Positions 5,748 through 23,835 of a stretch of 64,000 nucleotides of DNA are shown in pieces. A model generated the notes under the pieces. It was given only the letters and a program-made list of their open reading frames with translations. It did no database searches and was not told the origin of the DNA. The stretch's first letter is position 1, and every line of letters starts with the position of its first letter. Source of the DNA: Niveibacterium umoris (GTDB taxonomy: Bacteria > Pseudomonadota > Gammaproteobacteria > Burkholderiales > Rhodocyclaceae); assembly GCF_014197015.1 (NCBI RefSeq), contig NZ_JACIET010000002.1, positions 620,001 to 684,000 on the forward strand, in the 5' to 3' direction. The position numbers and the translations under genes are program-made.

Positions 5748-6518
5748 TTACAAGCACACCACGTGAATCGGACTTGGCGCCCACTCGTCCTGAAGCGCAT
5801 GCGCGAGATTGGCCAACTCGACGCAATCCGAAGGCAACACGAGGACGGCACGGTCGTAGCGCTGTAGCAGTTGCGCGAGTCGCGCCAGATAGCCGCCGAC
5901 CACATGCATGGGCGCTTGCTGCCCAGCGGCTTTCACCTCTACCGCGATGCGAAGCCCTTGCTGCAAGAGCACCATGTCAGGCATCAGCGGACGACCAGAT
6001 GGCGTGACCTGTAGTTCGTCGACCGGACCCAAGCCAAGCAATTCCGGGTTCCGTCGTATCCGTTCCACCGCGTCGCGTTCAAACTCTGCGACCCGTCGCG
6101 ACGTACTCAGCCGCCGATGTCGAACCGACGCTGTGCTCTGAGCGAGCGCTTCGTCGAGACGCGCGCGAATGCCGTCTGCAGGAAGAGTACCCGTGAACAC
6201 CTCGGTGGCTAGCTCGCGCGCAGCGCTCGGCGAGCAGTCGTGCAATTTTGCCAACTCGGCAACCGCCACTGAGCCGGCGGCAAGGGGTTTGCCGTTGAGC
6301 GCTTCCGGATACTCGCTCGCGAGAAAGCGGTAGAGGCGCTCAAACCGCCGTGCGGTGCGCGCATCAAGCCCAGTCTTGTCGAGGATGCTCTGCTGCGTTT
6401 CAGCAACTGTAGCTGCGCTCCCCGGCGCGTCGTCGATTATGGCTGCGATTAATTTCCCCTGAGCAAGCCACTGCGGCCACAAGGGATTTTCGGCATCCAT
6501 CAGCACACGACGACCCAT
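5748..6518 (-). CDS. Hypothetical protein with a PD-(D/E)XK nuclease-like C-terminal domain
   Basis: A 256-residue protein. The ATG at 6518 has a GGAG box 5 bp upstream. The N-terminal ~130 residues are helical and may contain a DNA-binding module. The C-terminal region carries P180-D181, twelve residues, then E194-V-K196, followed by alternating strands and helices: the arrangement of the PD-(D/E)XK nuclease fold. It is read divergently from tnsA with 122 bp between the two starts, so they share a control region. It may be cargo of the Tn7-like element, an accessory nuclease, or an element-protecting restriction protein. Function is inferred from the motif only. Confidence 0.7.
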   Translation of the reverse strand: MGRRVLMDAENPLWPQWLAQGKLIAAIIDDAPGSAATVAETQQSILDKTGLDARTARRFERLYRFLASEYPEALNGKPLAAGSVAVAELAKLHDCSPSAARELATEVFTGTLPADGIRARLDEALAQSTASVRHRRLSTSRRVAEFERDAVERIRRNPELLGLGPVDELQVTPSGRPLMPDMVLLQQGLRIAVEVKAAGQQAPMHVVGGYLARLAQLLQRYDRAVLVLPSDCVELANLAHALQDEWAPSPIHVVCL

Positions 6519-6640: not shown

Positions 6641-7414
6641 ATGAAACGGAAAACAAACAAAGGACCGTCTGCCGAGGTTGAGCAAGGCATCCGCAAGCTT
6701 GCCACCGTCGGCGGCCGACACGCGTACATGTACGACAGCCTAAAGGCGTCGGGAATCATCGCGTTGGAATCGCGACTTGAGCGAACCGCGGTGCAACTTG
6801 CTGACGTCGACCCGAACGTCCGTAGGGTCGTGGCCCAACCCTTCACGCTTGACGTTGAAACGGGCCAAATCTTTACGACACGCGAAGCGCTCCAGACGGC
6901 GAGGGAGGCGCGAAAGAAGACCGAGGCAACGAAGCGCGACTACACCCCCGACTTCAACTTCGGTTTGGTGTGGCGAGAAGTCGCGGTCGAGGCCAAGGAC
7001 GAGCGCTTCTTCGGCGACGCTGAGTACTGGAAGAAGGTCGAACGCGCGGCGCATATCTTGCGGACAGCGGGCAGGGGATTTGCGGTGGTGTGCTTCTCGC
7101 GCAAGGAGCTCGATGCTCTTGAATGGAATGCCGCCGTCCTGACTTCATTCCGTCATACCGCGACTGAATCACTCACGCCACGTGGCGTCGACGCCATCGC
7201 TGATTGTCTTGCCCACGGTGAGCGACCGCTGGCAGAGGTTCTGAAAGCGGCCGGCCTCTCAGTTCGTACGTCTCCCGGCCTGTTCCTTGATGGCGTGCTC
7301 CGAGCGGACCTCAAATCCAACCGGATATCGACGAACCTTATCGTTGAGTTGGCGCACGGAGACCTGTCCAGTCTTTCGCTCCTGCCTTTCGAACCAGGAC
7401 TGCTTGCGCCATGA
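6641..7414 (+). CDS. tnsA: TnsA-like endonuclease of a Tn7-like transposon
   Basis: A 257-residue protein. I use ATG 6641 rather than the in-frame TTG two codons upstream. It has the TnsA N-terminal nuclease pattern: E43/E47 in 'ALESRLER', 'YTPDF' with D104, and V-E-A-K with E117 and K119, i.e. the PD-(D/E)XK metal-binding set. In Tn7, TnsA cuts the 5' ends of the element and works in a complex with TnsB, so that the element moves by cut-and-paste. The C-terminal half matches the helical part that contacts TnsC in the Tn7 model. It overlaps tnsB by an ATGA. Divergence from Tn7 TnsA is large; it is closer in layout to the Tn6022-like group, where the equivalent is called tniC. Confidence 0.85.
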   Translation: MKRKTNKGPSAEVEQGIRKLATVGGRHAYMYDSLKASGIIALESRLERTAVQLADVDPNVRRVVAQPFTLDVETGQIFTTREALQTAREARKKTEATKRDYTPDFNFGLVWREVAVEAKDERFFGDAEYWKKVERAAHILRTAGRGFAVVCFSRKELDALEWNAAVLTSFRHTATESLTPRGVDAIADCLAHGERPLAEVLKAAGLSVRTSPGLFLDGVLRADLKSNRISTNLIVELAHGDLSSLSLLPFEPGLLAP

Positions 7415-9378
7415 GCCGGTATTTGCGCGCGGATATGCGTTTCGCAACGCCGAACGGTCCCCGGATTGTCATCAGTGTGCTGCAAGACGAAAAGCTGGTG
7501 CAGCTCTTCAATCCCGAGTCGAAGGAGACCGAGCTGTTGGGTTACCGGGATGTACGCAAGCACATCTCGGATGGCACGTTTGTCTTGCAGGAGAAGAATC
7601 CGATTGGGTCGGTCGTCAGTGCCACCGCGACGACGCCTGCACTCCTGCATCAGCACCACAACCTGCTGATAGTCGATGAACTGCTGCGACGAATTCGTAA
7701 GGGAGCTACGCCGCGTGCTGCCGTGTTGGCGTTGCAAACCAGCGGGCTTCAGGATGCCGACGGCAATGCAGTGCCGCTTTGCTCTAACCGCACGATGTTC
7801 CGTTTGTTGAGGCGGCGAATCGAGGGCAACAAAACGCTCCTGCCGCGGTTTGACCTTCGTGGAAATCGTGTCGGTCGATATCCGGCGCTGTTGGTGGACT
7901 TGATTCTCCAGCTCGTCGACGAGTTCTACGCCCAGCCGCAGTCGCGTATCAATTTGCAGCAAATCGCCTTTGCAGCGTCGCGACGCGGAAGCGACAGCGG
8001 ACTGCTCTCGCCGGGGGTATCTGTCACCTACAAGTTCGTCCGACGAATCGTTGTGACGATGTGGAACCCGGACCTCGATTTTCGGCGACTGGACTGGCGA
8101 ATTGCGCGGGCGGCCAAGGCGGTTGCGGCGGAGAAAATCTACGTTGCGAGCGCGCTCCAGCGGGTGGAGATGGATACGGTCAATCTGCCCTTTGTGTTGC
8201 GTGCACACCGCGTCATCTACACGACGGTCAATTTGATGATTGCAATCGACTGCGCAACGTCGCTTGTAGTCGGTTGGTGGTTCATGCTCGCGGCCCCCAC
8301 CACGGCAGACACCCTCAGTTGCGTGTCCCGCATCCTTTTCTCCAAGCGGCAGCTGCTATCAGACCTTGGTGTGGAGGCAACCGTGGACCCTTATGGGCTT
8401 TGCATTGAACTGGTTGTGGACAATGGCCCGGAGAACAAAGGGCCTCAGATAGACCGGCTCTCGACGATAGGCATCAACCTCACGCGAACGCCCGTCAACT
8501 CGCCCCAAAAGAAGCCCTTCGTCGAACGTATCAATCGCAGCTTGAAAGAGGCGCTTCAGACGCTGCCCGGCTGCACGCGCTTTAACGGAAAAGACGGTGC
8601 TCGTACGGAGGCCGCGCTTCACGACGCATTGATGACACCGCGTGAGCTCGAACAATGGATTGTTCGTTGGATGCACCAGAGCTGGGCACATCACGTCCTC
8701 CAACGATTTGTGACCGAGTCGTATCACACGGAAGAGTCCCCAGGGCTCACGCCCGCTGCGCGCTGGCAGTACTTCGAAAACACGTTGCCTCTGCCCTTGT
8801 CACCAAGGCGCGAAGACGTTGCTGCGCTGTCTTATCTGAAGGTCACGCGTAGCCTGAGTCCGAAGACCGGGATTCCGTTGGAGGGATTCCGCTTCAAAGG
8901 CGAGAACCTGCGCCGCCTGATTCAGGAGTACGGGCCCGATGCCGTCGTCGAGGTGTTCTACGACCCCAACGACTATCGGGTTGTTAAGGTGATTTCGCAG
9001 CGGTCGGGGGAATTGCTCACCCTTGTAAACACCGAGGCGCTGGCGGATGGCCCCGCCTACACCTTCAAGGAGTTCAAGGCGATAAAGGCTGGCAAGGCTG
9101 TCGAAGTCCGAGCGTTGCCGACGCATCCTCACGCTGAACTCTTTGACCGAGACCTTGCCGCCGCAGCGTTCAGCAAGCCGGCTGGCCGAGCCGCGAAGAA
9201 GGCCCAGCATCAGGCCGTGCGCGCTGAGCAGGCTGTTCGGCGAGCTGTCGAAAATCCGCTCCCGGTGACCTCACCGGCCCCGCTGGCGCCCTCGTCGCAC
9301 ATTTCCGAAGACGCCATTCCGTCGTTCACCGTCGCACGGTCCGCAGCAAAGTCTTCACGAGGACAGGCAAGCAAATGA
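7411..9378 (+). CDS. tnsB: TnsB-like DDE transposase
   Basis: A 655-residue DDE transposase of the Mu/Tn7/TniA class, catalysing 3'-end cleavage and strand transfer. The catalytic triad is visible: D255 in 'VEMDTVN', D337 in 'VVDNGPE', and E372 in 'PFVERINRS', with 34 residues between the second D and E. An N-terminal ~240 residues with helix-turn-helix-like stretches would bind the element ends. After the catalytic domain there is a Mu-type beta-barrel region. The last ~100 residues are basic and Ala/Pro-rich and may form the tail that contacts the ATPase. Start and stop both overlap neighbours by ATGA. Intact length and a complete triad indicate that it could be active. Confidence 0.93.
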   Translation: MSRYLRADMRFATPNGPRIVISVLQDEKLVQLFNPESKETELLGYRDVRKHISDGTFVLQEKNPIGSVVSATATTPALLHQHHNLLIVDELLRRIRKGATPRAAVLALQTSGLQDADGNAVPLCSNRTMFRLLRRRIEGNKTLLPRFDLRGNRVGRYPALLVDLILQLVDEFYAQPQSRINLQQIAFAASRRGSDSGLLSPGVSVTYKFVRRIVVTMWNPDLDFRRLDWRIARAAKAVAAEKIYVASALQRVEMDTVNLPFVLRAHRVIYTTVNLMIAIDCATSLVVGWWFMLAAPTTADTLSCVSRILFSKRQLLSDLGVEATVDPYGLCIELVVDNGPENKGPQIDRLSTIGINLTRTPVNSPQKKPFVERINRSLKEALQTLPGCTRFNGKDGARTEAALHDALMTPRELEQWIVRWMHQSWAHHVLQRFVTESYHTEESPGLTPAARWQYFENTLPLPLSPRREDVAALSYLKVTRSLSPKTGIPLEGFRFKGENLRRLIQEYGPDAVVEVFYDPNDYRVVKVISQRSGELLTLVNTEALADGPAYTFKEFKAIKAGKAVEVRALPTHPHAELFDRDLAAAAFSKPAGRAAKKAQHQAVRAEQAVRRAVENPLPVTSPAPLAPSSHISEDAIPSFTVARSAAKSSRGQASK

Positions 9379-10394
9379 AGCTCTCAAAATGGCTTCGACT
9401 CAACATCGACACCTTGGTCATCGAACATCCAGCCTTTGTGGCGGTGCGTCAGGCTATTCTCGATGCGGTGACCGATACCATCGACGGCCTGCCTTCCGAG
9501 GTATTGGTGCTGTTGGGCCCGACCCAAGCAGGCAAGTCGAAGATGCTGCGCACCATCGCTGAAGCGTATCCCCCTACAAGAATTGAGGGACGTCTTCAAG
9601 TTCTCGTGCTCTATATCAGTCTGCCACCGGGTGTCGCCCTTAAAGATTTGCCGAAGTACGTTATCAGGGCCCTGGGCATCCGACGCGGCGCCAAATTTCG
9701 GACCGCTGGAGAACTGTTCGGCGAGATGTGCGACTTGCTCAAAAACGCATCCGTTAGGGCAATTCTGTTTGATGAGGGTAACCATCTAGTTGATATCGGG
9801 CACCGCATTTTGCCCCGCCAAGCCGCTGATTGGTTTAAACACCTTAACGAGCTCGCCAATATCAGCATCGTAGTGGCAGGTATCCCGCGGCTGCGTGCGC
9901 TTCTCCAGCGCAACGAACAAGTGCGAGGACGCGCTCCGCGCGCCATCGAACTGCTGCCGTACCGATGGGACAGACGCGACGAACGATTGAACTTTGCGGG
10001 GTGTGTGCGTGCCTTTCTCGACCTCTTCGAGAACGAAGGCTGCATCGTCGAGATGACGATGGACGCTTTTGTGCGCTATGCCTACCTGGTGAGCGCGGGG
10101 CACGTGGGCTTATTGGCGCGCTTCTTCGTTGAACTGGCCAAGCCGCTCGACACACCACAGCCCATCACGCTGGCAGCGCTGCAAGCAGCGGCCTCGAAGC
10201 TCAATCCCCCGGGTGGCGTCGAGACGGCCCCATTCTCAACTCAACCACCCACAGACGATTTGCTGATGGAAGTCCTGTCCGCGGCGCTTGCAGAGAACGA
10301 CATCGTCCTCCCGCCGGACCCAGGTCTGGCCGAGGTCGGTCACTTGCGCAGCAAGATGCAACAGGCGCCAAGGAAGACCAGAGGCCGGAAATGA
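9375..10394 (+). CDS. tnsC: TnsC/TniB-like AAA+ ATPase, transposition regulator
   Basis: A 339-residue ATPase. Walker A is GPTQAGKS at residues 48-55, and Walker B with the acidic pair D133-E134 lies in 'AILFDEGNHLVD'. In Tn7 and related elements this protein forms the ATP-dependent link between the target selector (TniQ/TnsD) and the TnsAB transposase and enforces target immunity. The ~60 C-terminal residues beyond the AAA core are Pro/Glu-rich and probably flexible. Translation is coupled on both sides (ATGA at 9375 and at 10391). All motifs are intact. Confidence 0.92.
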   Translation: MKLSKWLRLNIDTLVIEHPAFVAVRQAILDAVTDTIDGLPSEVLVLLGPTQAGKSKMLRTIAEAYPPTRIEGRLQVLVLYISLPPGVALKDLPKYVIRALGIRRGAKFRTAGELFGEMCDLLKNASVRAILFDEGNHLVDIGHRILPRQAADWFKHLNELANISIVVAGIPRLRALLQRNEQVRGRAPRAIELLPYRWDRRDERLNFAGCVRAFLDLFENEGCIVEMTMDAFVRYAYLVSAGHVGLLARFFVELAKPLDTPQPITLAALQAAASKLNPPGGVETAPFSTQPPTDDLLMEVLSAALAENDIVLPPDPGLAEVGHLRSKMQQAPRKTRGRK

Positions 10395-12244
10395 GTCTGA
10401 TAGAGCTCTTCGAACCACGTCCGGACGAGGACGCTATTGGCTACTTGCGGCGGCTTGCGGGGCCGTCCGGCTACGCCGATTGGCGTGCGCTGGTGCGCAG
10501 CACCGGTATCAACCCTTCGCGAAATGCGTTGTGGAAGAACAAGGCGCATCTGACCCAATCGCTGGAGCTTGATGCCGTTTGGCTTGAACAGGTGATGCCG
10601 ACAGCGATGGACGGCGTGGGACTTCATGACCCGCAGTACCTGCGCGCTGGCGTCTCGCCCGTGTGTCCGGCCTGCTTGGCTGAATATGGTTACCTCAGGC
10701 GAGCCTGGCAACACATCTTCGTGGTGGGGTGTCCAGAGCACGACTGTCAGCTTCTCGACCACTGCCCCGATTGCGGTGAGCGCTTGCACGACGCGGCCTT
10801 TAGTTTCGAGCACTGCGAGTGTGGCTATGAATTGGCGTACGCCAAGACGCCGGGGCTGAGCGCGATGCACCGGTTCGTCAGCGCGCGACTGCAAGGCGAC
10901 ATGCGAACCATCGAAGGCGTTGCCGAACTCGGGCGACCGGAAGACTACAGGCTATTGGGGCCGCTGCTCTTTCAGCTCGCCGCGCGCTTGGACATTTCGT
11001 CGCGCATCAAGCCGAGCAAAATCGCGAAACCGAAGACCGTATCGGAAGCGGTGACGTTTCTTGATGGCACGCTGACCTTGTTCCACGACTGGCCGCGCGC
11101 CTTTGAAGCTCACGTGAAACAGCGGATTCGCGCGGGCAAGCCAAATGCCATGGGGTTGGCCAGTCGGCTCGGTCACTGGTACATGTCGCTCCAAGCGTTG
11201 TGTCGGGGGCAAGACTGCTTTGCCCCGGTCTGGCAGGCTTTCTCGGACGCGGTGTTTGATGCATTTGACGGCATGCTGCGCGGCGGTGGTGTGCTGAGGC
11301 CCTCTCCCCACAAGGTCCGCATGTTTCTCCCAGTGCAGGAGGCAGCGCGAGAACTTGGTGTGAGCAGTCCGACGCTCTCCAGCGCGATTGCCGGCGGCGA
11401 GGTCCATGCGCGGGCCAGTGAGCGCGGCACGCACTACACCGTGGCGATGATTGAGCGCACCGAAGTCAAGCGGGTGAAAGCTAGCCGCGAGGCTTGGTTA
11501 CCGGAATCGCGTGCGGCGGAGTTGCTCGGTGTGAGCGAGACTGTGCTTGAGAATCTGATTCGCGCCGGCTTGGTGCGCGTCGACACCACCTGGCGGTCGA
11601 CGTTTCTCAAGAGCGGCCCGGTCATGGCCGCCAGCCTCGACGAACTCTCTCATCGCCTTATCGGCTTCATCGAGCCCAGTCCGATTTTTGGCGAGACGCT
11701 CTCCTTCAATCAACTGACGGCACGCCGGACGCTCGACGGGAGGGCGCTCATCGCGTTGTACCAGGCCATCTTTGAAGGCCAGATTCGACCCGTCGGGCGC
11801 GACAGCGAGCATGGTCTGGGTGGATTGCTCTTTGCAGCCAATGAGGTGAAGCGCTATCTCGGGTCTGCCGCACTTTCAAGCGGTCTGACGCTGCTGCAAC
11901 TTGAACGCGCGACCGGTTGGAAGTACGAGGCGATTTCGCATTGGGCCTCGCTGGGGCTGCTTCGGATTGAGTCTGTCGAGCTTGCTGGGCGCCCGGCCCG
12001 GGTGGTGACGAGCGCAGCGCTGTGCGAGTTCCGCAGCCAGTGGGTTCCGGTGAGCGAACTCGCCGCATCGGTTGGGATGCCTGCAGCGAAGTTGGTGAGC
12101 ACCCTTGAGGGCCGAGGCGTGCCGGTGGAGGGTATGAAAGCGCTGCCCAACGGCACACGCCGCGGTGGTCTTGTGCCCATGGCTGCCCTCGCGCGCGCGC
12201 TCACCGCTCATGCGCCAGACGACGACCGGCGCGGGGTCGTGTGA
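10391..12244 (+). CDS. tniQ: TniQ/TnsD-like target-site selector
   Basis: A 617-residue protein. The N-terminal TniQ zinc domain has cysteines at 92/95, 114/119, 125/128 and 142/144, with the typical 'VCPACLAEYGYLRRAWQHIF' and 'CPEHDC' segments. The long C-terminus contains at least four helix-turn-helix-like or MerR-like modules, near residues 310-336, 368-397, 498-527 and 550-580 (for example 'WLPESRAAELLGVSETVLEN'). In TnsD, the C-terminal part reads a fixed chromosomal attachment site, so this long form suggests one preferred target rather than guide-RNA targeting. Short TniQ proteins of CRISPR-associated transposons lack such a tail. It overlaps tnsC by ATGA and the next gene by GTGA. 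Confidence 0.92.
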   Translation: MSLIELFEPRPDEDAIGYLRRLAGPSGYADWRALVRSTGINPSRNALWKNKAHLTQSLELDAVWLEQVMPTAMDGVGLHDPQYLRAGVSPVCPACLAEYGYLRRAWQHIFVVGCPEHDCQLLDHCPDCGERLHDAAFSFEHCECGYELAYAKTPGLSAMHRFVSARLQGDMRTIEGVAELGRPEDYRLLGPLLFQLAARLDISSRIKPSKIAKPKTVSEAVTFLDGTLTLFHDWPRAFEAHVKQRIRAGKPNAMGLASRLGHWYMSLQALCRGQDCFAPVWQAFSDAVFDAFDGMLRGGGVLRPSPHKVRMFLPVQEAARELGVSSPTLSSAIAGGEVHARASERGTHYTVAMIERTEVKRVKASREAWLPESRAAELLGVSETVLENLIRAGLVRVDTTWRSTFLKSGPVMAASLDELSHRLIGFIEPSPIFGETLSFNQLTARRTLDGRALIALYQAIFEGQIRPVGRDSEHGLGGLLFAANEVKRYLGSAALSSGLTLLQLERATGWKYEAISHWASLGLLRIESVELAGRPARVVTSAALCEFRSQWVPVSELAASVGMPAAKLVSTLEGRGVPVEGMKALPNGTRRGGLVPMAALARALTAHAPDDDRRGVV

Positions 12245-13422
12245 GTAGCAAAGCGAACCGTCGCGGGCGCGTCGAGTATGTCGAACTGACGCGCGAAGCC
12301 TTGTATCAGAAGGTTTGGTCGACACCGATGACGCACCTGGCTGCATCGCTTGGGATTTCTGACGTCGCGCTCGGAAAAGCCTGCCGGCGTGCCCTGATTC
12401 CTGTCCCGCCGCGCGGCCATTGGGCGCGCGTTGCGGCATCCAATGAACGCCCGCCCACCCCGCCGCTGCCGGCACGCGGGCTGGGCCAAGCGGAGCTTGT
12501 CACGTTCGGATTCCGGCGCTGGCCACCCAGCGACGCCGAGTTCGAACACTTGCCACCGGCCCCCAGCTATTCTGAGTCGCTCGAAGCCCTGATTGAGCAA
12601 GCGTCCCGTTTCATTGGAAAGGGCCGTGTTTCGAGGGGGCTTGAACCGCTCACGCCTGCGGTAGCCAAGGTGATGGAGGCTGACGAGGTGCGGCGGCGCA
12701 AATGCGCCGAGAGCGCGTGGCACTGGGACAAACCGAAGCTCGACACGCCCGAGGCCCAGCGGCGACTGAAAATCCTGAATGCGCTGGGGCTCCTGATTTC
12801 ACGCACCGACGCTCAGCTCATTGCTGTCTCCGATGACGCACTCTCGGCACGCGTTTGCGTCGGCGAGCAGCATCTGAGCTTTGTCTTTGAATATGCGAAA
12901 AAGTCAGCACGGCAGAAGACGAGAACCCCCAACCTGACCTTCCGGCTGGAGGTATCAGTGGCCCAGTGGGAAGAGATTGCGACCCGCTGGTCCGACGAAG
13001 CTGGTCACAGAATTGAGGAGGAGCTGCGGCACATGGCTGTGTCGGCGCTCGTGTTCGGCGAACTCGCGCACCGCGCTTCGGCAATTCGGCAGCATCAGTG
13101 GCTGGTAGAGCGTCGCGACGCGCTGCACGAGACTGCGCGTCGCGAAGCGGAGGCGCGGGAACAAGCGCGACGTGAGGCCCGACAACGGCGGCAGAACGCG
13201 CAAATTAAACAGTTGCTCGCGGCCTCCGAAGCGCTGCGTCAATCAGAAGCGATTCGCGCGCTGGTCGACGCCATGGCTGCCAAGCGTGGCGTTGACGCTG
13301 ATGAGGCGTTCTTATCTTGGAAGCGCTGGGCGCTTGAACAAGCCGACCGCCTCGACCCTCGCCATGCCGACATCGGCGGCTTCGTTCGGTCCTTCACCCC
13401 GGACGACGACGATGGCGGATAA
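12241..13422 (+). CDS. Helix-turn-helix plus coiled-coil protein coupled to tniQ, unknown function
   Basis: A 393-residue protein starting with a GTG that overlaps the tniQ stop (GTGA). Residues ~14-60 form a module with 'ALYQKVWSTPMTHLAASLG', then 'ISDVALGKACRR' and 'IPVPPRGHWAR'. This helix-turn-helix-type domain is recurrent in hypothetical proteins of mobile elements. The central part is unassigned. Residues ~285-335 are Arg/Glu/Ala-rich and form a strong coiled coil. The stop overlaps the metallophosphoesterase start by 11 bp. Because it is the fifth member of a translationally coupled tns operon, I infer a role tied to transposition or to the following phosphoesterase; no biochemical role is known to me. 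Confidence 0.8.
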   Translation: MSSKANRRGRVEYVELTREALYQKVWSTPMTHLAASLGISDVALGKACRRALIPVPPRGHWARVAASNERPPTPPLPARGLGQAELVTFGFRRWPPSDAEFEHLPPAPSYSESLEALIEQASRFIGKGRVSRGLEPLTPAVAKVMEADEVRRRKCAESAWHWDKPKLDTPEAQRRLKILNALGLLISRTDAQLIAVSDDALSARVCVGEQHLSFVFEYAKKSARQKTRTPNLTFRLEVSVAQWEEIATRWSDEAGHRIEEELRHMAVSALVFGELAHRASAIRQHQWLVERRDALHETARREAEAREQARREARQRRQNAQIKQLLAASEALRQSEAIRALVDAMAAKRGVDADEAFLSWKRWALEQADRLDPRHADIGGFVRSFTPDDDDGG

Positions 13423-14440
13423 GGATTCCGCACTCTGGCGCCTGGTGACCGCAAGGCCTTACCCGCGCATCCATGTGCTGTCGGACTTGCATCTCGAAAC
13501 CGGGCCTTACGCCCTGCCCGATGGGCTGGGCTTTGATGTGCTCGTTGCCGCGGGTGACATCGGACCGGTCGAGGAAGCGGTGGCGTGGCTTGCGGCCATC
13601 GGGAAGCCGGTCGTGTATGTCCTCGGCAATCACGAGTTTTGGGGGCGTCAGTTTGATGAAGTGCTGCCGGCAGCGCGTGCGGCGGCGCGTGGCACGCAGG
13701 TCCACGTCCTGGAGCGCACTCACGTAGTGATTGCGGGCGTGCGTTTCCTCGGAGCGACGCTGTGGACTTCGCTTGGCGAGTGGCACCCTAACCTCGTTCA
13801 TCAGGCGCATCGCCAGATGCGCGACTACGCTGAAATTGGCGCACGGAGCTGGTATAGCTCTGCGCGCAACCTTGCCTTCTTTCGTCGACAACTAAAGGCG
13901 GCAGGTCTGCATGTACCGTCGCAGGACGCGTGCAGCCGGCTGTCGCGCTTTCATCCCGTCATTTCGTATCAAGCGCACCTGCGCGCCGTTGCATGGCTTC
14001 AGCGGGAATTGGCGAAGCCGTTCAAAGGTCCAACGGTAGTGGTTTCTCATCACGCCCCGAGCTTTCGTTCGCTCGAACGCGCTGGCCTCGGGGCAGACGT
14101 CCTCGACCCCATTACCTGGGGTCAGCGAGACGACCGACTCGTCCGGGTCGCGTGCTATGCAAGCCCTCGGACCGTGAGTCGAGAATCGTGGCGTCACGTC
14201 GCAGTGTGGGTCCACGGACATCTTCATCATGCGCTGGATTTCGTTGCTGATGGCACGCGGGTCGTCTGCAACCCGAGGGGTTATGCGCTCAAGCCGTTCA
14301 CTGAACGGGACATCGAGGCGTTTTCGCTCTTCGGGGTTCCGCTGACCGAGGACGATGTGGCCCGCCGCAAAGGTTTGCTTCGAGAGCAGCCGTATCGTGG
14401 CGATGCTGTAGCGTCAATCCGCACGCCATCGTCGAGCTAA
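13412..14440 (+). CDS. Calcineurin-like metallophosphoesterase coupled to the tns operon
   Basis: A 342-residue protein from the ATG at 13412, 11 bp inside the previous gene; a longer frame upstream lies entirely within that gene and is rejected. All metallophosphatase motifs are present: D25-x-H27 in 'VLSDLHLE', G48-D49, G72-N-H-E75, a 'VVSHHAPS' block, and G269-H-L-H272. Members bind two metals and hydrolyse phosphomono- or diesters, including nucleic acids and cyclic nucleotides; the substrate cannot be read from the sequence. Being encoded in the tns transcript, it could act on DNA ends, on a signalling nucleotide, or as cargo defence. No signal peptide is visible, so it is cytoplasmic. 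Confidence 0.88.
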   Translation: MADKDSALWRLVTARPYPRIHVLSDLHLETGPYALPDGLGFDVLVAAGDIGPVEEAVAWLAAIGKPVVYVLGNHEFWGRQFDEVLPAARAAARGTQVHVLERTHVVIAGVRFLGATLWTSLGEWHPNLVHQAHRQMRDYAEIGARSWYSSARNLAFFRRQLKAAGLHVPSQDACSRLSRFHPVISYQAHLRAVAWLQRELAKPFKGPTVVVSHHAPSFRSLERAGLGADVLDPITWGQRDDRLVRVACYASPRTVSRESWRHVAVWVHGHLHHALDFVADGTRVVCNPRGYALKPFTERDIEAFSLFGVPLTEDDVARRKGLLREQPYRGDAVASIRTPSSS

Positions 14441-14526
14441 GCGAAGGGAATCGGACCGTCGTCAGGAGCCTCGTTCAGCCTGCGGCTTCGGAAACCACTG
14501 CCCTTGCGGCGAACTCCAAGGAACTC

Positions 14527-15135
14527 GTGGCCCATGTCGCGAGAGATGACATTTTGGGGGACTGCGCCAGACGTTGCTTTGACGCGAATGTCGAAGCGGC
14601 CCGACGCATCACCGCTGACGTTGTGGCCCAGTTGGAGGGCGCGCTCGATGAACCGGACCGGATGTTTTCGTCACTCAGGCAGGAGTACGGCCGCCTCTCA
14701 CTCTATGGACCGACGCCTGACGGTGACCGCACGGTGCTGGAGCCCTCGGACTACGAACGCTGCGCAGAGCGACTGGAAAGCGCAGCGGCGTGGTTGAGTG
14801 ACCTTCCCGACGCGACACAACGCTGGTTGCGCAATTGGGCGTCCGAAGCACTGGAACAAGTCGAGAGGCTGCGTCACGAGGGCCGGGAGGCCTACTGTCA
14901 GCCGCTGCCAGCGTCTGCGTTACGGCTGAGAAGAAACATTGACGTCACCCTATTTGTCGATGACGCGCCTGAGGTTTGTATGCGGCTGCAAGAACGCCTG
15001 CGTGAACGGGCGGGTCGCGGTGCGCAATTTGTGTTTGTCCGCGTTCGGCCATACGCCGAGGTATCCCGAAAAGAACGAAAGGCCCTGCTGTCCCGCGACA
15101 CACTGAGTGAGATTCTTGGCGCTTGGGTTGCGTGA
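14527..15135 (+). CDS. Hypothetical protein at the end of the tns operon
   Basis: A 202-residue product from GTG 14527, the first usable start in this frame. The frame is open without a start codon back into the phosphoesterase gene, so a lost start or a small frameshift is possible. It is a soluble, mostly helical, acidic/arginine-rich protein with a C-terminal strand-rich part ('NIDVTLFVDDAPEVCMRLQE'). I do not recognise it. It lies 86 bp after the phosphoesterase on the same strand and is probably transcribed with the tns genes. Confidence 0.5.
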   Translation: MAHVARDDILGDCARRCFDANVEAARRITADVVAQLEGALDEPDRMFSSLRQEYGRLSLYGPTPDGDRTVLEPSDYERCAERLESAAAWLSDLPDATQRWLRNWASEALEQVERLRHEGREAYCQPLPASALRLRRNIDVTLFVDDAPEVCMRLQERLRERAGRGAQFVFVRVRPYAEVSRKERKALLSRDTLSEILGAWVA

Positions 15136-15648
15136 GTGCCGCATCGGCCGCGAACGCGTGCTGTGCCGACTAGATAGGCTCCTCGAATTCACCGTGAAGG
15201 ACTTCGTCGTCGCAACGTGGCCAAGTGCTTGTAATGCTGGCGAGGGTCGTCGGAGACTTGGCGCGTTGACTGGCCGGCGTTGCTAAGAGAGCACAACCAG
15301 ACAGATGCAGTGAAATGCACGCCAGCGCGCGGTGCCGACCTCAGTTGCCGCACGTTGTCTACATTGCTGGCGAAAACGTGGCTCGGAGCCCAGTTGCGGG
15401 TCAGTTTTTCCTAGCACCCTTGCGGGGCTGCGAGCGTAGCTGATTTATCGGTGGTCCATGCTCCTACGGCAGCACATGAAATGTCCGAAATCGAAAACCG
15501 TGGCTAGGTCCTGACTCTCATGGTGTGCGATGGGGCCTAACGACTCCTAACTTTGAGCTGGCTCGTCCTCCGTCCGGTATGGCAGTCTGACAATTGTCGA
15601 CATGAGTGCTACCGGCACGCCAACAAACCAATCGATAAAGCGACGAGC
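15136..15648. other. 513-bp intergenic stretch between the tns operon and the ATPase/helicase cassette
   Basis: No convincing gene, RNA or terminator with a T-run is seen. The stretch is lower in GC than the flanking genes, and the last ~95 bp are an in-frame extension of the next gene. It probably contains that cassette's promoter; I could not pick out a clear -35/-10 pair. Confidence 0.4.
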
Positions 15649-18600
15649 ATGGCTACCGAAATGGAAGGCTCGACTACACCCAAAGCCGTCATCGAACATA
15701 TCAGGCGGTACGAGTTTGGCATCGGAGCCGAGCTCGTTGGAGATGGCCGGGAAGTCGTCGACCGAATGGTTCGAAAATACCGGAATCTCTTGGAGACGGT
15801 CGCAAAGGACCTCAACTCAAAAGAGTCGCACTTCTTGCTCGAGTTGCTCCAAAACGCCGATGACAACCGCTACGCTCCCGGTGTCGCTCCGTCTCTTGCA
15901 TTTCGATTGACCTCTAGAGAAATCGTAGTCTCGAACAACGAAATCGGCTTTTCGTCTGACAACGTTCGTGCGCTTTGCAGCGCTGGCGAGAGTTCAAAGA
16001 AGAACAAGGTCGGTTACATCGGAGAGAAGGGAATCGGCTTCAAGTCGGTGTTCAAGGTCACGGACACGCCGGAGATTCACTCCAATGGCTATCACTTCCG
16101 GTTCGACTTGACCGACCCCAACGACCAGTTGGGCTATGTCGTTCCCCATTGGGTGGCCCCCCGGGCAGAAGACGATGAGAGAGTCACCACTGTCGTTCTT
16201 CCGGCTAGGGCAGGAAGCGAATTCTCGCCAGAGCTTCTGGGTGACATCAACGCGACGTTGCTCCTGTTTTTGGAGAAACTTCGCCTGCTCGAAGTTCACA
16301 CGAACGATGGCACCTTCCGCTATGAGCGAGCGGATGACAACTTCCTCAGCGCGCTGACAGTAGTCAGTAAGCGTGCTGGTGAGGCTGAGTCGAGAGAGAC
16401 GTCGACGTACCTCCGCTCAAAGTACTCGCTTGACATGGCAGACATCGTTGAGCCGAAGCGGGAGAAAGTTGAACGTGTTGACGTCGTGCTTGCCTTTCCC
16501 CTTTCAGACGACGGCGCTGCGGCACCGGTTGAGGGGTGCCCGACCTATGCCTTTCTTCCCATCCGTAGTTTCGGTTTCTCTTTTTGCATCCAGGCGGACT
16601 TCGTCCTTATCTCCAGTCGCGAGGGCGTACACGAGGAACTGCCTTGGAATCGACGTCTGCGCGATTCAATTGCTCCGGCGTTCGTAGCCGCAGTCGAGGA
16701 GTTCAAGCGGCATCCGGCACTGGCGCTGAGCTACCTGCGGTTCTTACCCAAAAAAAGTGATGTCGTGGACCCGTTCTTCGCCCCTGTCGTGGCGCAGACC
16801 GTTGACGCGCTTAAGGAGGTCGCCTGCATTCCTGTTGAAGGAGGTGGTTGGCGCAAACCGTCGAAGGTGTTGCTGGCATCTGATGCAATCCGCGAACTCT
16901 TTACTTCGGCCGACGCAGTGACGCTGTTCGGGGCTGACTACCCGACGCCTGGTTTCGTGGCACCGGAAGGCGGCCTTGAGCGATTGTCATGCCGTACGCT
17001 TTTCATCCAGGAGGTGCTTGAGCTCTTCGGCAAGCGCAGCGAATGGCTAAAGGGTAAGGACTTAACGTGGAAGGTTCGGTTCTACGAGTACATTGCAAAG
17101 TCGCCAATGCGGGACGACTACGTCAAAGAAATGTTGAAGCTGCCTTGCATTCCTGCCGCAGGTGGGAAGATGGCAACGCCGCAGAGCGACGCAGTCTTCT
17201 ATCCCTTGAGTTCAGCTGAGAAGTACGGCTTCGAGCACCTGCTTACCGTTGTTGATGGCGAGTTCCATGCTCGGGCTCGTGAGATATCCCCGGATGTACT
17301 TGCTCTCCTGGATAGCCTTGGGGTTCAACACGACGAGCCGTACGAACTCGTCCAGCACCACGTTTTGCCACACCACACACCCGACGGGTTTAAGAAGGCG
17401 GACCGAGTAGCGCTTCTTGGGCATATCCGCTATCTCCGCGATAAGCTCGACGCCTATCTAGCCAAAGCTCGTGATGGTCAGTCAGAAGAAACAGCCCTGA
17501 AGACACTTCGCACAGGGTTGTACTTGTGCAACAAGTATGAAGAAGATGGTTCCTGGTACTTTGGCCGGCCAGACTCAATTTACTTGGGCAAAGAATATCG
17601 TCCGGCCTTCGATATTGAAGGCTTGCTAGGCGACCAGCTTCCCCCTAAGAAGTTGTTGTCCGAAAAGTACATCGTCAAGTCGGCGGGTAGGTCTGACAAG
17701 GAGGAAACTGCAGCTGACCTTCAGCGGTGGCGTGAGTTCTTCATTCGAATCGGGGTGCACGACGCTCCACAGGTCGTCCCTCAGGTCACGGGTGATGTTG
17801 CTTGCAGCGACGAACTCTCTGCGCTGCTGACGGCTGAAGACAAAGCGGTGCGGAGGGAGACTCTTGAGTGTTTGAACAAGCACTGGAGTCGATACAGTCA
17901 CCTGACGACATATCAAGCTCGTTCAGGGAGGTCGGTTTTCCAGACGCAGCGGACGCAGTTCGCGGCGGCGTTGCGAGCAACTGCCGCACCGACCCGACGT
18001 CGAGTGACGGTGCCGCTGGAGCAAACCTATCACGACCGTCCCGAGGTGAGTGACCTCCTGGGCGGAAACCTTACGTACGTGGATGCTGACGTTTCGGATG
18101 AGCGCTTCCTTGCTTCGTGCGGCATCACTTACAAGGTGGATGCCAACGCGTGTCTCAAGCGGCTCCGCCAGATTCGCGCCGAAGGCGGCACTACCAAAGA
18201 GCAGATACGACGCATCTACCGACGGCTTGAGGACCTCTGGAACATCGACGGGCCCACGATTAAAGCCGCCTTCGCAAGCGAAGCGCTCATCGCTCTTGGG
18301 CGAGGTGACAGCCTCACATGGGTTCTACCGAGCGATGCGTGTTGGCGTCCAACGAACGTGCGCTTCCTCGATACACGGCATCCCCCGCTGAGTACGCAGT
18401 ACGTCGACTACTCGAATTTCTTTACCCGCTTGCTGCATGTTCCACCCGAACTGGAACTGACCAAGTGGGTAGACGCGCTCGCGGAACTTGAGGGGGTGGA
18501 GTCGAAAAGTGAGCGCGAAGACATTGCCCGCGTTATCTACAGACGCCTGAGTCGCGAACTCGCCTTGCAGTCATCTACCAATCCGCCTAGCCCACCGCCC

Positions 18601-20445
18601 GCGTGGCTGGGGCGGTTCGAGTCGCAGCAGCTCTTTCTTAGTCACCGCGGAAAACTTGTTGCGAACTCTGCTGCGCTGTACTTCAACGATGCGCCTGAAT
18701 ACGCCGCGCTCTTCAAGGACTCACCGGACGTTTCCTTGTTGACCCTTGCGCGGGATGATTGGTCCGCAGTCGAACTACTTCTCAACAAGTCGGGAGTCCG
18801 AACTCTTTCTTCGTCGTTAACGATAGCAGTCGCACCTGGCATTGAGGGGACATCTAGCGAGCGACTCACTCAAAAGCTGCGGGACATGTTCGTGTGTTTC
18901 GCTCGCGTGGTTTATGAGCATAACCAACAGCGCTTTGAGACGGCCATCAAGGAGAAGCTGTTTGAAGAGCTGCATAACCTTGAGGTTGTCATCGTTCAGG
19001 ACTTGGTGCTTGATGTAACGCTTGGTGCGTCTGTGCGCAGGACGACCGGTCCAGTGGCTCGACGAGGAGCTGAACTCTTGCTCCACGCGGAAGCCCCTTC
19101 GCATTTGGACCAAGTGGCATTAGAAGTCCGCAAGCTTTTGCGACTGCCAGTTGTGCTCACCGACATCATCAGCCGGGTGTTGATTTCACCGACAGTGCAG
19201 GACGCGGAAGCGTACCTCCGACTGCGTAACGTCAGCGCACTCCCGCCTGAGGAAACGCTCGCGCTGGACCGAGCATTCGGTCTTGCACCGCCAGCGCTAG
19301 CAGTGCCGCCTAGTCAGGAGAGCGAGGACACCGAGGTCAAGACGACTGCACTAACAGCTCCCGCGACGGAGCCTGCTGCAACGGTTCCTAGCCCAGCATC
19401 ACTGCCACTGGGCGCCGCAGGTACTGAGCCTCGTCCGCCTGCAGATGAGGGTCTGGACAAGAACTTTGCGCCGCTCTCCAAGTCGGCAGCAGGCGATATA
19501 TGTTCACGCGCAGGTTCTGCCGGAAACAGTTCGTCGCAACTCGTCGCGAGCGCCACGGACGGCAGCAGTTCACCAAGGTGTGACTCCAGTGTGCCTACTG
19601 CATCTACGCCCACGCCGAAATCGCCTGGCACTGCTAGGAATGGAGGTGCTGCAGGCGGACAGGCGTCCGAAGGTGCGTACACGCCAAGAGGCAGTCGGAA
19701 TGGCGCTTCCGAGGGAGGACTAGCGCCAGCACAGGTCAGTACGGGGACTTATCGCGGTGGTCCACAAGTAGGACATCGAGCGCAAAAGGCCAGGCCAGCG
19801 CGAACGAAGAGAGGACGGCTGCTTAGCTACGCAGACACCTCCGACCCAACGAAGCCGTCGGTACCGCCAGACGCGGAGTCGAACTCCGAGGCCGCAAAAT
19901 GGAATCTCGCTGTTGAACAAGCTGCGGTCACCTATTTTCTTGAGAAGGCTGCGCCGCAGTGGAAGTCTGCAGAAGTGATGCCACCCGGAAACGCCGGCTT
20001 TGACGTCAAGGCCATCGCCATGGATGGCGGCGAGGAATACATCGAGGTTAAAGGTCAGGGTGGCGCTTGGACCGAGGAAGGGGTTGCGTTAACACCCACC
20101 GAACTCGCCAAGGCGTTCTCAGCCGGAAGGCGGTATTGGCTCTGCGTAGTCGAGCATGCTACTGACGACAACCGTCGTCAGCTGTTCCTGGTGCAGGACC
20201 CCTTTGGGCTAACGACGCAGTTTCGCTTCGACAAGGGTTGGAAGGCAATGGCCAAGACGGTCGCCGCAAAGCCCCTTTGCCCGGAGGTCGGCATGTTTGT
20301 CACCATTGAGAATGATGGGAAGGGGAGAATCACCAAAGTGAAGGGCAGCGGGCGCTTCAAGAAACTGCACATCGAGTTCGCGGACGGGAGGCTGTCCTTC
20401 AGCAAGGTATTCAACCCCTCAACGATGACGCTGAGCTACGAGTAA
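15649..20445 (+). CDS. Sacsin/HSP90-like ATPase with C-terminal DUF3883 domain, candidate defence protein
   Basis: About 1598 residues from ATG 15649; the longer frame begins at 15553 and the start is not fixed by a ribosome-binding site. The N-terminus is a GHKL/sacsin-type ATPase: 'LLELLQNADDNRY' near residue 64 is the N-box with the metal-binding Asn, and 'GEKGIGFKSVFKV' near 125-137 is the G1 box. A long helical middle follows. Residues ~1225-1400 are a Ser/Pro/Ala-rich, low-complexity linker. The end is a DUF3883 domain with Y-I-E-V-K-G near 1463, a likely PD-(D/E)XK-type nuclease core. This ATPase + DUF3883 architecture occurs in bacterial defence islands. The next gene starts 2 bp after the stop, so they form one operon. 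Defence function is inferred. Confidence 0.88.
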   Translation: MATEMEGSTTPKAVIEHIRRYEFGIGAELVGDGREVVDRMVRKYRNLLETVAKDLNSKESHFLLELLQNADDNRYAPGVAPSLAFRLTSREIVVSNNEIGFSSDNVRALCSAGESSKKNKVGYIGEKGIGFKSVFKVTDTPEIHSNGYHFRFDLTDPNDQLGYVVPHWVAPRAEDDERVTTVVLPARAGSEFSPELLGDINATLLLFLEKLRLLEVHTNDGTFRYERADDNFLSALTVVSKRAGEAESRETSTYLRSKYSLDMADIVEPKREKVERVDVVLAFPLSDDGAAAPVEGCPTYAFLPIRSFGFSFCIQADFVLISSREGVHEELPWNRRLRDSIAPAFVAAVEEFKRHPALALSYLRFLPKKSDVVDPFFAPVVAQTVDALKEVACIPVEGGGWRKPSKVLLASDAIRELFTSADAVTLFGADYPTPGFVAPEGGLERLSCRTLFIQEVLELFGKRSEWLKGKDLTWKVRFYEYIAKSPMRDDYVKEMLKLPCIPAAGGKMATPQSDAVFYPLSSAEKYGFEHLLTVVDGEFHARAREISPDVLALLDSLGVQHDEPYELVQHHVLPHHTPDGFKKADRVALLGHIRYLRDKLDAYLAKARDGQSEETALKTLRTGLYLCNKYEEDGSWYFGRPDSIYLGKEYRPAFDIEGLLGDQLPPKKLLSEKYIVKSAGRSDKEETAADLQRWREFFIRIGVHDAPQVVPQVTGDVACSDELSALLTAEDKAVRRETLECLNKHWSRYSHLTTYQARSGRSVFQTQRTQFAAALRATAAPTRRRVTVPLEQTYHDRPEVSDLLGGNLTYVDADVSDERFLASCGITYKVDANACLKRLRQIRAEGGTTKEQIRRIYRRLEDLWNIDGPTIKAAFASEALIALGRGDSLTWVLPSDACWRPTNVRFLDTRHPPLSTQYVDYSNFFTRLLHVPPELELTKWVDALAELEGVESKSEREDIARVIYRRLSRELALQSSTNPPSPPPAWLGRFESQQLFLSHRGKLVANSAALYFNDAPEYAALFKDSPDVSLLTLARDDWSAVELLLNKSGVRTLSSSLTIAVAPGIEGTSSERLTQKLRDMFVCFARVVYEHNQQRFETAIKEKLFEELHNLEVVIVQDLVLDVTLGASVRRTTGPVARRGAELLLHAEAPSHLDQVALEVRKLLRLPVVLTDIISRVLISPTVQDAEAYLRLRNVSALPPEETLALDRAFGLAPPALAVPPSQESEDTEVKTTALTAPATEPAATVPSPASLPLGAAGTEPRPPADEGLDKNFAPLSKSAAGDICSRAGSAGNSSSQLVASATDGSSSPRCDSSVPTASTPTPKSPGTARNGGAAGGQASEGAYTPRGSRNGASEGGLAPAQVSTGTYRGGPQVGHRAQKARPARTKRGRLLSYADTSDPTKPSVPPDAESNSEAAKWNLAVEQAAVTYFLEKAAPQWKSAEVMPPGNAGFDVKAIAMDGGEEYIEVKGQGGAWTEEGVALTPTELAKAFSAGRRYWLCVVEHATDDNRRQLFLVQDPFGLTTQFRFDKGWKAMAKTVAAKPLCPEVGMFVTIENDGKGRITKVKGSGRFKKLHIEFADGRLSFSKVFNPSTMTLSYE

Positions 20446-20447
20446 CC

Positions 20448-22154
20448 ATGGCACGCATGCTTCCTGAGTTGACCGAAGAGCAGCTGAAAGGTCTGAAGTC
20501 ACAGGCCGAGGCCCGCTTCTACGAAGAGTGTCGGAAACAGTTGCCTGACGATGTTCTCGTCATCTATTCAGTCAACTGGATATATCGGGACGGCCGGGGT
20601 TGGCTATTCGAGGGGGAGGCGGATTTCACCATCGTCGTACCGCAAAGCGGTGTGTTCGCGATTGAGGTCAAAGGCGGAGGAGTGTCGTTTGATTCTGTCA
20701 CTGGGCGTTGGCAGTCCATCGACCGAAACAAGGTAATACACGACATCAAGGACCCGTTCAGCCAAGCAGCTGGTGAGCGCCACGCCCTCCGGGACCAACT
20801 TCTTGGACATCCCCTCTGGCGTCGGTGGCGAGGCTCCCGAGTGACTCTGGGCCATGCGGTGATGTTGCCGGACATTCACGACGCACAACAACTCGTTGCG
20901 CCAAACCGTCAGCGACCAATCATCGGCGTCGATACGGACATCAGCGCGCTTGTGCCGTGGATGGCACAGCTGCAGGCCTTCTGGACACAAACAAATGAGA
21001 GCCCACTCGGCGCCCACGGCGTTCAGTTGGTCGAGGAAATCCTGTGTAGCTCTGTAGAGGTTCGACCGGCCATGCGAGCCGTTCTTGATGCTGCTGAGCA
21101 AGCGCGCATACGGCTGACGACCAATCAAGCAAAAGTCCTCCGCATACTGGGAGGTCGTAAGCGTGCGGTCATTGCGGGTGGAGCCGGCACAGGCAAGACC
21201 CTGATAGCGGTCGAAAAGGCAAGGCAGCTCGCGGAGATGGGACTGTCAGTCTTACTGCTTTGCTACAACAGACCACTCGCGGGAGCTCTGGCCGCAAGTG
21301 TTATTGACGAACCCCGCATCACGGTACTCAGTTTCCATCAGCTCTGCGATAGACGCATCGCTGAGGCTCGCAAAGCGGCCGGCGTGGACCTGCTTGCAGA
21401 AGCGCAGGAAGCATTCCCAGGCCACGATGAGAAGCACCTCTTCGAGGTCCAAATGCCTTTCGCGCTAGCTCGGTCGAACGAAGTTCTTGACGCGAAGTAT
21501 GACGCGCTGGTTGTCGATGAGGCACAGGACTTCAGCGACGACTACTGGTTCTCGATAGAGGAATTGCTCCGCGAACCTGAGCAAGGGTTCCTGTACATCT
21601 TCATCGACGAGAACCAAGCGCTCTACCGCAAGCATGCCAACTTGCCGGTGAAGGACGAGACCTACCGTCTTCTCGCAAACTGCCGCAACACTGTCCCCAT
21701 TCATCGAGCTGGCTACGCGTTCTACAAGGGTGATGCCATTGACGACCCCGACCTGCTTGGAGACCCCGTCACTCGAATGGCCGCCGACGACGACGGCCAA
21801 CAAGCGGTTGCAATAGCAAGCGTCGTGAAAAAGCTTCTCGCTGATGCGGTCCAACCAACTGAAATTGCGGTTCTGTTGGCCAAGCGACCGAAGGCTCGAT
21901 TGTATGGATTGCTTCAGGACCAAAAGCTATCGGGTGGGCACTCTTGGACTATTGAGGCCCCGGGACCGCATCGAGCAGTACTCGTCGACACTGTGGGCCG
22001 TTTCAAGGGCTTGGAGGCGCCGGTGGTCATCCTTTGGGTCGGCGACGAGGTTATTGACGAGAAACAGTGGGAATACCTTTACGTTGGGGCCACTCGCGCG
22101 AAGTCACTCCTCTACGTGGTCGGCTCTGCAAGAGCAGTGGATGCGTTCGCCTAG
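20448..22154 (+). CDS. NERD nuclease-domain superfamily 1 (UvrD-like) helicase
   Basis: A 568-residue protein, ATG 2 bp after the previous stop. The N-terminal NERD (nuclease-related) domain has D59 in 'GEADFTIV' and E73-V-K75 in 'VFAIEVKGG', the PD-(D/E)XK-like set. A superfamily 1 helicase follows: Walker A GGAGTGKT at 244-251, DEAQ at 357-360 in 'ALVVDEAQDFSDDYW', and a C-terminal 'KGLEAPVVILW' and 'YVGATRAK' as motifs V-VI. It would unwind and possibly cut DNA, with the large ATPase/DUF3883 protein as partner. Two putative nucleases and two NTPases in a two-gene operon fit a phage-defence module. A good terminator follows at 22220. Confidence 0.88.
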   Translation: MARMLPELTEEQLKGLKSQAEARFYEECRKQLPDDVLVIYSVNWIYRDGRGWLFEGEADFTIVVPQSGVFAIEVKGGGVSFDSVTGRWQSIDRNKVIHDIKDPFSQAAGERHALRDQLLGHPLWRRWRGSRVTLGHAVMLPDIHDAQQLVAPNRQRPIIGVDTDISALVPWMAQLQAFWTQTNESPLGAHGVQLVEEILCSSVEVRPAMRAVLDAAEQARIRLTTNQAKVLRILGGRKRAVIAGGAGTGKTLIAVEKARQLAEMGLSVLLLCYNRPLAGALAASVIDEPRITVLSFHQLCDRRIAEARKAAGVDLLAEAQEAFPGHDEKHLFEVQMPFALARSNEVLDAKYDALVVDEAQDFSDDYWFSIEELLREPEQGFLYIFIDENQALYRKHANLPVKDETYRLLANCRNTVPIHRAGYAFYKGDAIDDPDLLGDPVTRMAADDDGQQAVAIASVVKKLLADAVQPTEIAVLLAKRPKARLYGLLQDQKLSGGHSWTIEAPGPHRAVLVDTVGRFKGLEAPVVILWVGDEVIDEKQWEYLYVGATRAKSLLYVVGSARAVDAFA

Positions 22155-22528: not shown

Positions 22529-22682
22529 GGTGTGACACTAATTGGGTAAATGTGTGCCAATTTTTGGTTCCGGAATCCTCTGTAGGCCTTGCGGCTGCTA
22601 GGGGGCCTGTGCCACCAATTGAGTCTCGCTACAGAACTGCGCAGGGTCACAATGAGTGACGTAGCTGGCGCCAATTGTTGAT
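22529..22682. repeat. Cluster of CCAATT-containing repeats, possible transposon-end binding sites
   Basis: CCAATT or its complement occurs four times in ~150 bp of otherwise GC-rich DNA. One is in TGTGACACTAATTGGG (22530-22545, inverted); the others are in TGTGCCAATTTTTGG (22553-22567), TGTGCCACCAATTGAG (22608-22623) and GGCGCCAATTGTTGA (22667-22681). Three share a TGTGCCA-like lead or a close variant. The rest of 22248-22725 shows no gene. Multiple transposase-binding repeats at an element end are typical of Tn7/Tn402-like transposons. No matching set was found upstream of tnsA within the window. Confidence 0.35.
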
Positions 22683-22725
22683 TGCCGCCCGCTGTTTCAT
22701 TGTCAATGCCCCTCTGCGGTCGCGC

Positions 22726-23624: not shown

Positions 23625-23780
23625 AGTTCAGGTGGGCGACCGCGAGAGGACAAACACTTCACGGTGGGCTGTCTTAGTGTGGTCTTCAGCGCAACCTGGC
23701 GACCCGGTAAGTCATCTTGAGACTCACGCTTGGCGTTAGCGTCACGACGGGACGGTGGAAAACGTCTCCGGACGTGCCGT

Positions 23781-23835
23781 TCGGAAAATTTCACTAACGG
23801 TGCCCAGATTTTCGGGGAATTTCATTAATGGTGGC
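23781..23835. repeat. Two imperfect 24-bp direct repeats, probable IS-end remnant
   Basis: Copies at 23781-23804 and 23812-23835 agree at 19 of 24 positions (core AATTTCA-TAA-GGTG), spaced 31 bp start to start. Such tandem sites near an end are typical of IS21-like elements, but no transposase gene is nearby. Confidence 0.4.

Follow-up and report, generated by a model that had tools for sequence, protein, structure and literature searches.

A Tn7-like transposon directly behind gyrB in Niveibacterium umoris, with two probable passenger genes downstream of tniQ

The window analysed here, a stretch of 64,000 nucleotides from Niveibacterium umoris, contains part of a Tn7-like element. In our reading, which we consider quite probable, this is a complete transposon inserted at gyrB, with tnsABC-tniQ as its core, and the two genes behind tniQ, encoding a protein of a helix-turn-helix (HTH) family and a metallophosphoesterase (MPE), are captured passengers. 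The element has intact ends, a target-site duplication, a recurrent site and a core gene order, and its pattern of conservation among relatives separates the core from the genes that follow it.

Extent of the element and its insertion site

An operon between 6641 and 15135 had previously been described as Tn7-like. This identity holds and is strengthened by both ends, the duplication and the attachment site, but the element is far larger than that interval, reaching 12.4 kb to the left of the window and position 22633 on the right (Table 1). Repeats around 22530-22680 pointed to counterparts 12.4 kb beyond the left edge of the window, and by repeat matching the element was delimited to 35,078 bp (contig C2 607556-642633). 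Its left tip is TGTAGCGAGACCCAATTAGTGACACA and its right tip TGTGCCACCAATTGAGTCTCGCTACA, both flanked by GAACT, and the inverted ends contain two transposase-site repeats on the left and three on the right. Such repeat arrays and a 5-bp duplication are expected of a Tn7-like transposon, as are genes for TnsA, TnsB, TnsC and TniQ/TnsD found together with intact motifs and repeated insertion at one safe site, here the 3' end of gyrB in several genomes.

Table 1. Features of the element (window positions, unless another sequence is named)
Feature	Position	Strand	Basis or remark
Left end of element	contig C2 607556 = window -12444 = L071:7556		12.4 kb left of window; directly 3' of gyrB
Element part within window	1-22633	+	inverted tips and GAACT at both flanks
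Divergent gene, 256 aa	5748-6518	-	phmmer 150 and 152 bits to G589 and G650; alignment 38% identity
tnsA, endonuclease subunit	6641-7414	+	NCBIfam TnsA-like 1e-12; D..EAK motif
tnsB, DDE transposase	7411-9378	+	Pfam Mu-transpos_C, IS481-type integrase core; DDE motifs
tnsC, AAA+ regulator	9375-10394	+	Pfam TniB 1e-16; Walker A and B
tniQ, long TnsD-like putative target selector, 617 aa	10391-12244	+	Pfam TniQ 1e-11, HTH_17 2e-7
HTH-family gene, 393 aa	12241-13422	+	GTGA coupling to tniQ
MPE frame, 342 aa from ATG 13412	13412-14440	+	Pfam Metallophos 6e-7; intact metal motifs
Candidate C-terminal half of MPE, -1 frame	14416-15135	+	coding-signal frame switch; aligns to C-termini of L121 and L123; includes ORF 14527-15135
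TmtA-like sacsin/NOV_C protein, right cargo	15553-20445	+	PADLOC, Pfam
NERD-UvrD helicase, right cargo	20448-22154	+	PADLOC, Pfam
Two internal transposase-site-like repeats, right end	22531-22567 (at 22531 and 22553)	+	weight-matrix scan, sequence
Right tip	22608-22633	+	inverted copy at L071:7556-7581
Target-site duplication GAACT	22634-22638	+	second copy at L071:7551-7555, immediately 3' of gyrB stop

The left flank of the element is gyrB, and the duplication starts right at the end of its stop codon. Among 20 genomes of the host family, six have TGTAG no more than 9 bp behind the gyrB stop (background 0.0028 per position); one of the six, L176, may be a chance occurrence. Elements at gyrB were delimited in G589 (25.9 kb, duplication TCGAA, with the core genes in the same order and the divergent gene upstream of tnsA) and, through a TniQ search, in G627 (33.0 kb, CGTTT) and G650 (24.0 kb, AACAG). 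A complete element of 13.9 kb with duplication GATGT also follows gyrB directly in G583 (L191, L196), which belongs to a different clade. In the TnsC tree the window forms a group with G589, G627 and G650 (support 0.99) whose sister is the Burkholderia-type set L199-L210; the G583 clade is distant from it, and the gyrB site has therefore been used at least twice, independently. Five precisely bounded Tn7-like elements from two separate clades are thus located directly after gyrB, at a safe site that adjoins this essential gene and could serve targeted insertion. The literature that we searched, the coverage of which is incomplete, contains no description of this site, which may be described elsewhere; its main text on Tn7-like target selection and cargo mentions neither gyrase nor phosphoesterases.

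Some further observations concern the site and its surroundings. The element of G650 (L231-L233) is inserted opposite to the gyrB orientation, unlike those of the window, G589 and G627, and this is unusual for a Tn7-like element. TGTAG tips are found behind gyrB in G593 and G594, which belong with G583 to the second, distant Tn7-like clade. Next to the element of the window, 30 bp beyond its right tip, a CAATTG repeat at 22664-22683 resembles the transposase sites; it was not counted as an end and is possibly a chance likeness or left over from an earlier element. Some 1.1 kb beyond the element, TTCGGRRAATTTCAYTAAYGGTG occurs in two direct copies with 31-bp spacing (window 23780-23833). Within the element, the left cargo (L071:8020-20000, continuing to window 4192) is a large block of defence type, encoding a DruE/DpdJ-like helicase, a DpdE-like helicase, a methyltransferase of roughly 1,480 aa and GmrSD_N and HNH proteins.

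The core operon

Translational coupling is conserved for the genes tnsA-tnsB-tnsC-tniQ, and the conserved unit ends at tniQ. Reading the sequence, we found the reported stop-to-start overlaps in place (ATGA at 7411, 9375 and 10391, GTGA at 12241), and the motifs that had been called intact are so in TnsA, in TnsB (D..DNGPEN..E), in TnsC (Walker A and B) and in the MPE (SDxH, GD, GNHE, SHH, GHLH). TnsB relatives score 450-671 bits and the TniQ relatives at gyrB 576-620 bits. The TnsB matches on plasmids were discarded as merely TniA-type proteins, about 25% identical.

From what is established for their families, TnsA and TnsB would cut and join DNA and TnsC would license insertion. The tniQ product carries C-terminal helix-turn-helix segments, and a TniQ of more than 400 aa suggests direct target selection (PMC10293859). 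At 617 aa, the TnsD-like TniQ of the window most likely recognises the conserved gyrB 3' end, and it would direct insertion to the position observed, a few bases after the gyrB stop. No tnsE was recognised in the element.

Upstream of tnsA, three of the four closely related elements at gyrB, namely those of the window, G589 and G650, have a divergent gene of approximately 260 aa (window 5748-6518 and L193:747-1544, both on the minus strand, and again in G650), which is conserved with the core better than either the HTH or the MPE gene. It has no Pfam match, and its AlphaFold model was of too low quality for a fold search. A PD..E pattern made a nuclease conceivable, but the lysine is not retained in G589 and this assignment was dropped.

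Genes behind tniQ

Because of the tight coupling, the preliminary description had proposed that the HTH protein and the MPE take part in transposition. To follow this claim, neighbourhoods were compared in 54 Tn7-like loci, namely those with enough sequence, which were recruited by TnsB or TniQ resemblance and are not a random sample. The 15 closest relatives (G589, G627, G650 and L199-L210) retain tnsA-tnsB-tnsC-tniQ, mostly with the same overlaps, the copy of L206 being broken; within 1.5 kb past tniQ, none of the 15, three of which are at gyrB, has an HTH or MPE gene. Among all 54 loci, an HTH gene follows tniQ in two (the window and G633) and an MPE gene in three (the window, L082 and L211, in the last two of which it starts 77 and 96 bp past tniQ), and these loci are on separate, distant branches of the TnsC tree. 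From this census, the proposed role in transposition is not borne out: the occurrence is sporadic, the very outcome that the preliminary description had named as refuting its proposal, and on unrelated branches, which indicates that the coupling behind tniQ arose by capture. Stop-start coupling after tniQ does not in itself argue that a gene acts in transposition. No ends were found for the G633 element or for L199-L211, and neither peptide-pattern scans with single proteins nor a TniQ scan of viral contigs returned any relative.

The HTH gene and a long MPE gene would accordingly have been captured right behind tniQ in the lineage of the window, and both are probably co-transcribed passengers. 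Against this reading stand the tight couplings and the fact that the two families recur beside tniQ in the unrelated G633, L082 and L211, which is more than neutral placement of cargo predicts. Since this recurrence includes a second stop-start coupling of tniQ to an HTH gene, in G633, a role for the HTH protein retains a small probability.

The HTH family is common on plasmids and islands, and its members are mostly stand-alone, with no adjacent tniQ. The AlphaFold model of the window protein is poor overall and unfit for a fold search; residues 18-50 form a confident three-helix N-terminal DNA-binding segment. Pfam and NCBIfam gave no match to a zinc-finger/XerH-like (TnsF) or TnsE domain, and no PDB relative was found by sequence. 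Nor does the gene show the conservation beside tniQ, within its own lineage, by which a selector of TnsF or TnsE type could be recognised, given its absence from all 15 nearest relatives and its presence in two of 54 loci. It could nevertheless be a DNA-binding factor associated with TniQ that has been recruited repeatedly behind tniQ, either to select a second target or to regulate the tns operon. This would agree with the predicted DNA-binding segment and with the stop-start coupling in two elements on distant branches, that of the window and that of G633 (at 10423), the latter with a TniQ of a size class thought to require a separate selector (PMC10293859). We regard it as unlikely, because three relatives use the same gyrB site without an HTH gene, the TniQ of the window is long enough to target directly, and about 30 other members of the family have no neighbouring tniQ. 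A small chance is likewise given to the idea that HTH-family proteins are modular partners of TniQ which Tn7-like elements have captured independently as an additional selector or regulator, most clearly in G633 with its short TniQ; the window element would then have two targeting routes, one by TniQ to gyrB and another by TniQ and the HTH protein to other sites. Probably, the HTH protein of the window either was captured as cargo or serves as an optional partner.

In G633 (L242:9386-11634) the situation differs: TniQ has 345 aa, and its stop overlaps the start of the HTH-family gene. A TniQ this short presumably depends on a partner for selecting the target (PMC10293859), so that this unrelated element, where the HTH protein could be the target-selector partner of TniQ, is the best one for testing such a role. 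G633 also has two MPE genes, 7-8 kb upstream of the point where tniQ ends, and after the TniQ-HTH pair a RES/Xre-like toxin-antitoxin pair lies on the other strand.

Concerning the MPE, two details of the gene structure have changed. An 11-bp gap had been reported between the HTH and MPE genes; position 13433 has no start codon, and the in-frame ATG at 13412 gives instead an 11-bp overlap with the end of the HTH gene. The third separate gene (14527-15135) that had been placed behind them is probably not a gene of its own and likely represents the out-of-frame C-terminal part of the MPE. The closest relatives of the MPE exceed it in length (L121, 561 aa, with 63% identity over 287 aa; L123, 584 aa; L211, 505 aa), and both parts of the window gene are collinear with a single one of them, the 561-aa L121. 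By base composition and codon likelihood, the coding signal changes frame at about 14400-14416, ahead of the GTG of ORF14527. The first frame aligns to L211 as far as the valine at 14408-14410, the other takes over from 14416, and NPHAIVELSEG of the second frame pairs with RYVVDLEDG of L121. When the second-frame part is added, the score against L121 rises from 930 to 966 (the highest of 300 shuffles being 948), and in pairwise comparison this part reaches z values of 4.6 against L121 and 4.1 against L123. A direct match to the C-terminus of L211 was undetectable, and with a profile of the two long-MPE C-termini the window part ranked 45th among 2,002 sequences, not above shuffles. Positions 13412-15135 are therefore likely one long MPE gene whose frame changed near 14411-14416, a claim based on the pairwise tests, the codon phase and the collinearity, to which the profile added no support. 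The change may be either a mutation or an assembly error; programmed frameshifting is not favoured, since no slippery heptamer was seen on inspection by eye.

That the MPE acts in transposition or in the processing of transposon DNA appears very improbable. Its metal motifs are intact and genes of its family follow tniQ closely in L082 and L211, but it is missing from the 15 nearest relatives, its relatives are frequent on plasmids and chromosomes away from tns genes, and the frame in the window is probably broken. More probably it is one of the accessory enzymes that circulate in the mobile gene pool, and its function may be defence. Residues 12-123, in its N-terminal half, match the phage-defence candidate PDC-S10 of PADLOC weakly (E 4e-9), and the same N-terminal-half match is seen in the tniQ-side MPEs of L211 and G633. 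These matches, together with the joint presence of HTH-family and MPE-like genes on a Tn554-like island (L123) and in the neighbourhood of G633, would also fit an independent small defence or maintenance cassette of HTH, MPE and ORF14527 inserted as a unit behind tniQ. We hold this to be improbable, less so than a part of the MPE in transposition, because HTH and MPE genes are adjacent nowhere else among the loci examined, most relatives of either stand alone, and ORF14527 probably belongs to the MPE. On the island itself (L123:478-17562), the HTH-family protein is accompanied by three recombinases and by a phosphoesterase-like protein without any metal-binding motif.

Comparison with known systems

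As in Tn7 (TnsABC with TnsD, targeting glmS), one operon of the window element encodes TnsA, TnsB, TnsC and a long TniQ/TnsD protein, the ends carry repeated transposase sites, the duplication comprises 5 bp and the insertion lies just past an essential gene. The window element differs from Tn7 in its target, gyrB, in that 19 kb separate tnsA from the closer of the two tips and cargo is present on either side, in the HTH and MPE genes after tniQ and in that tnsE was not recognised. With the Tn6022 family (short TniQ with TnsF, at comM) it shares a second operon protein directly behind tniQ; however, TnsF is characterised by zinc fingers and XerH-like domains (PMC10293859), neither of which Pfam matched in the window HTH protein, and TniQ is long in the window element. 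G589, G627 and G650 share with it the gyrB site, TGTAGCG tips and the core order, and G589 and G650 also the divergent gene, whereas their tniQ is not followed by HTH or MPE genes, their cargo is other and G650 is reversed in orientation. The likeness to PDC-S10 is limited to the N-terminal phosphoesterase half of the MPE, the window protein being longer and probably having an additional C-terminal half in the shifted frame.
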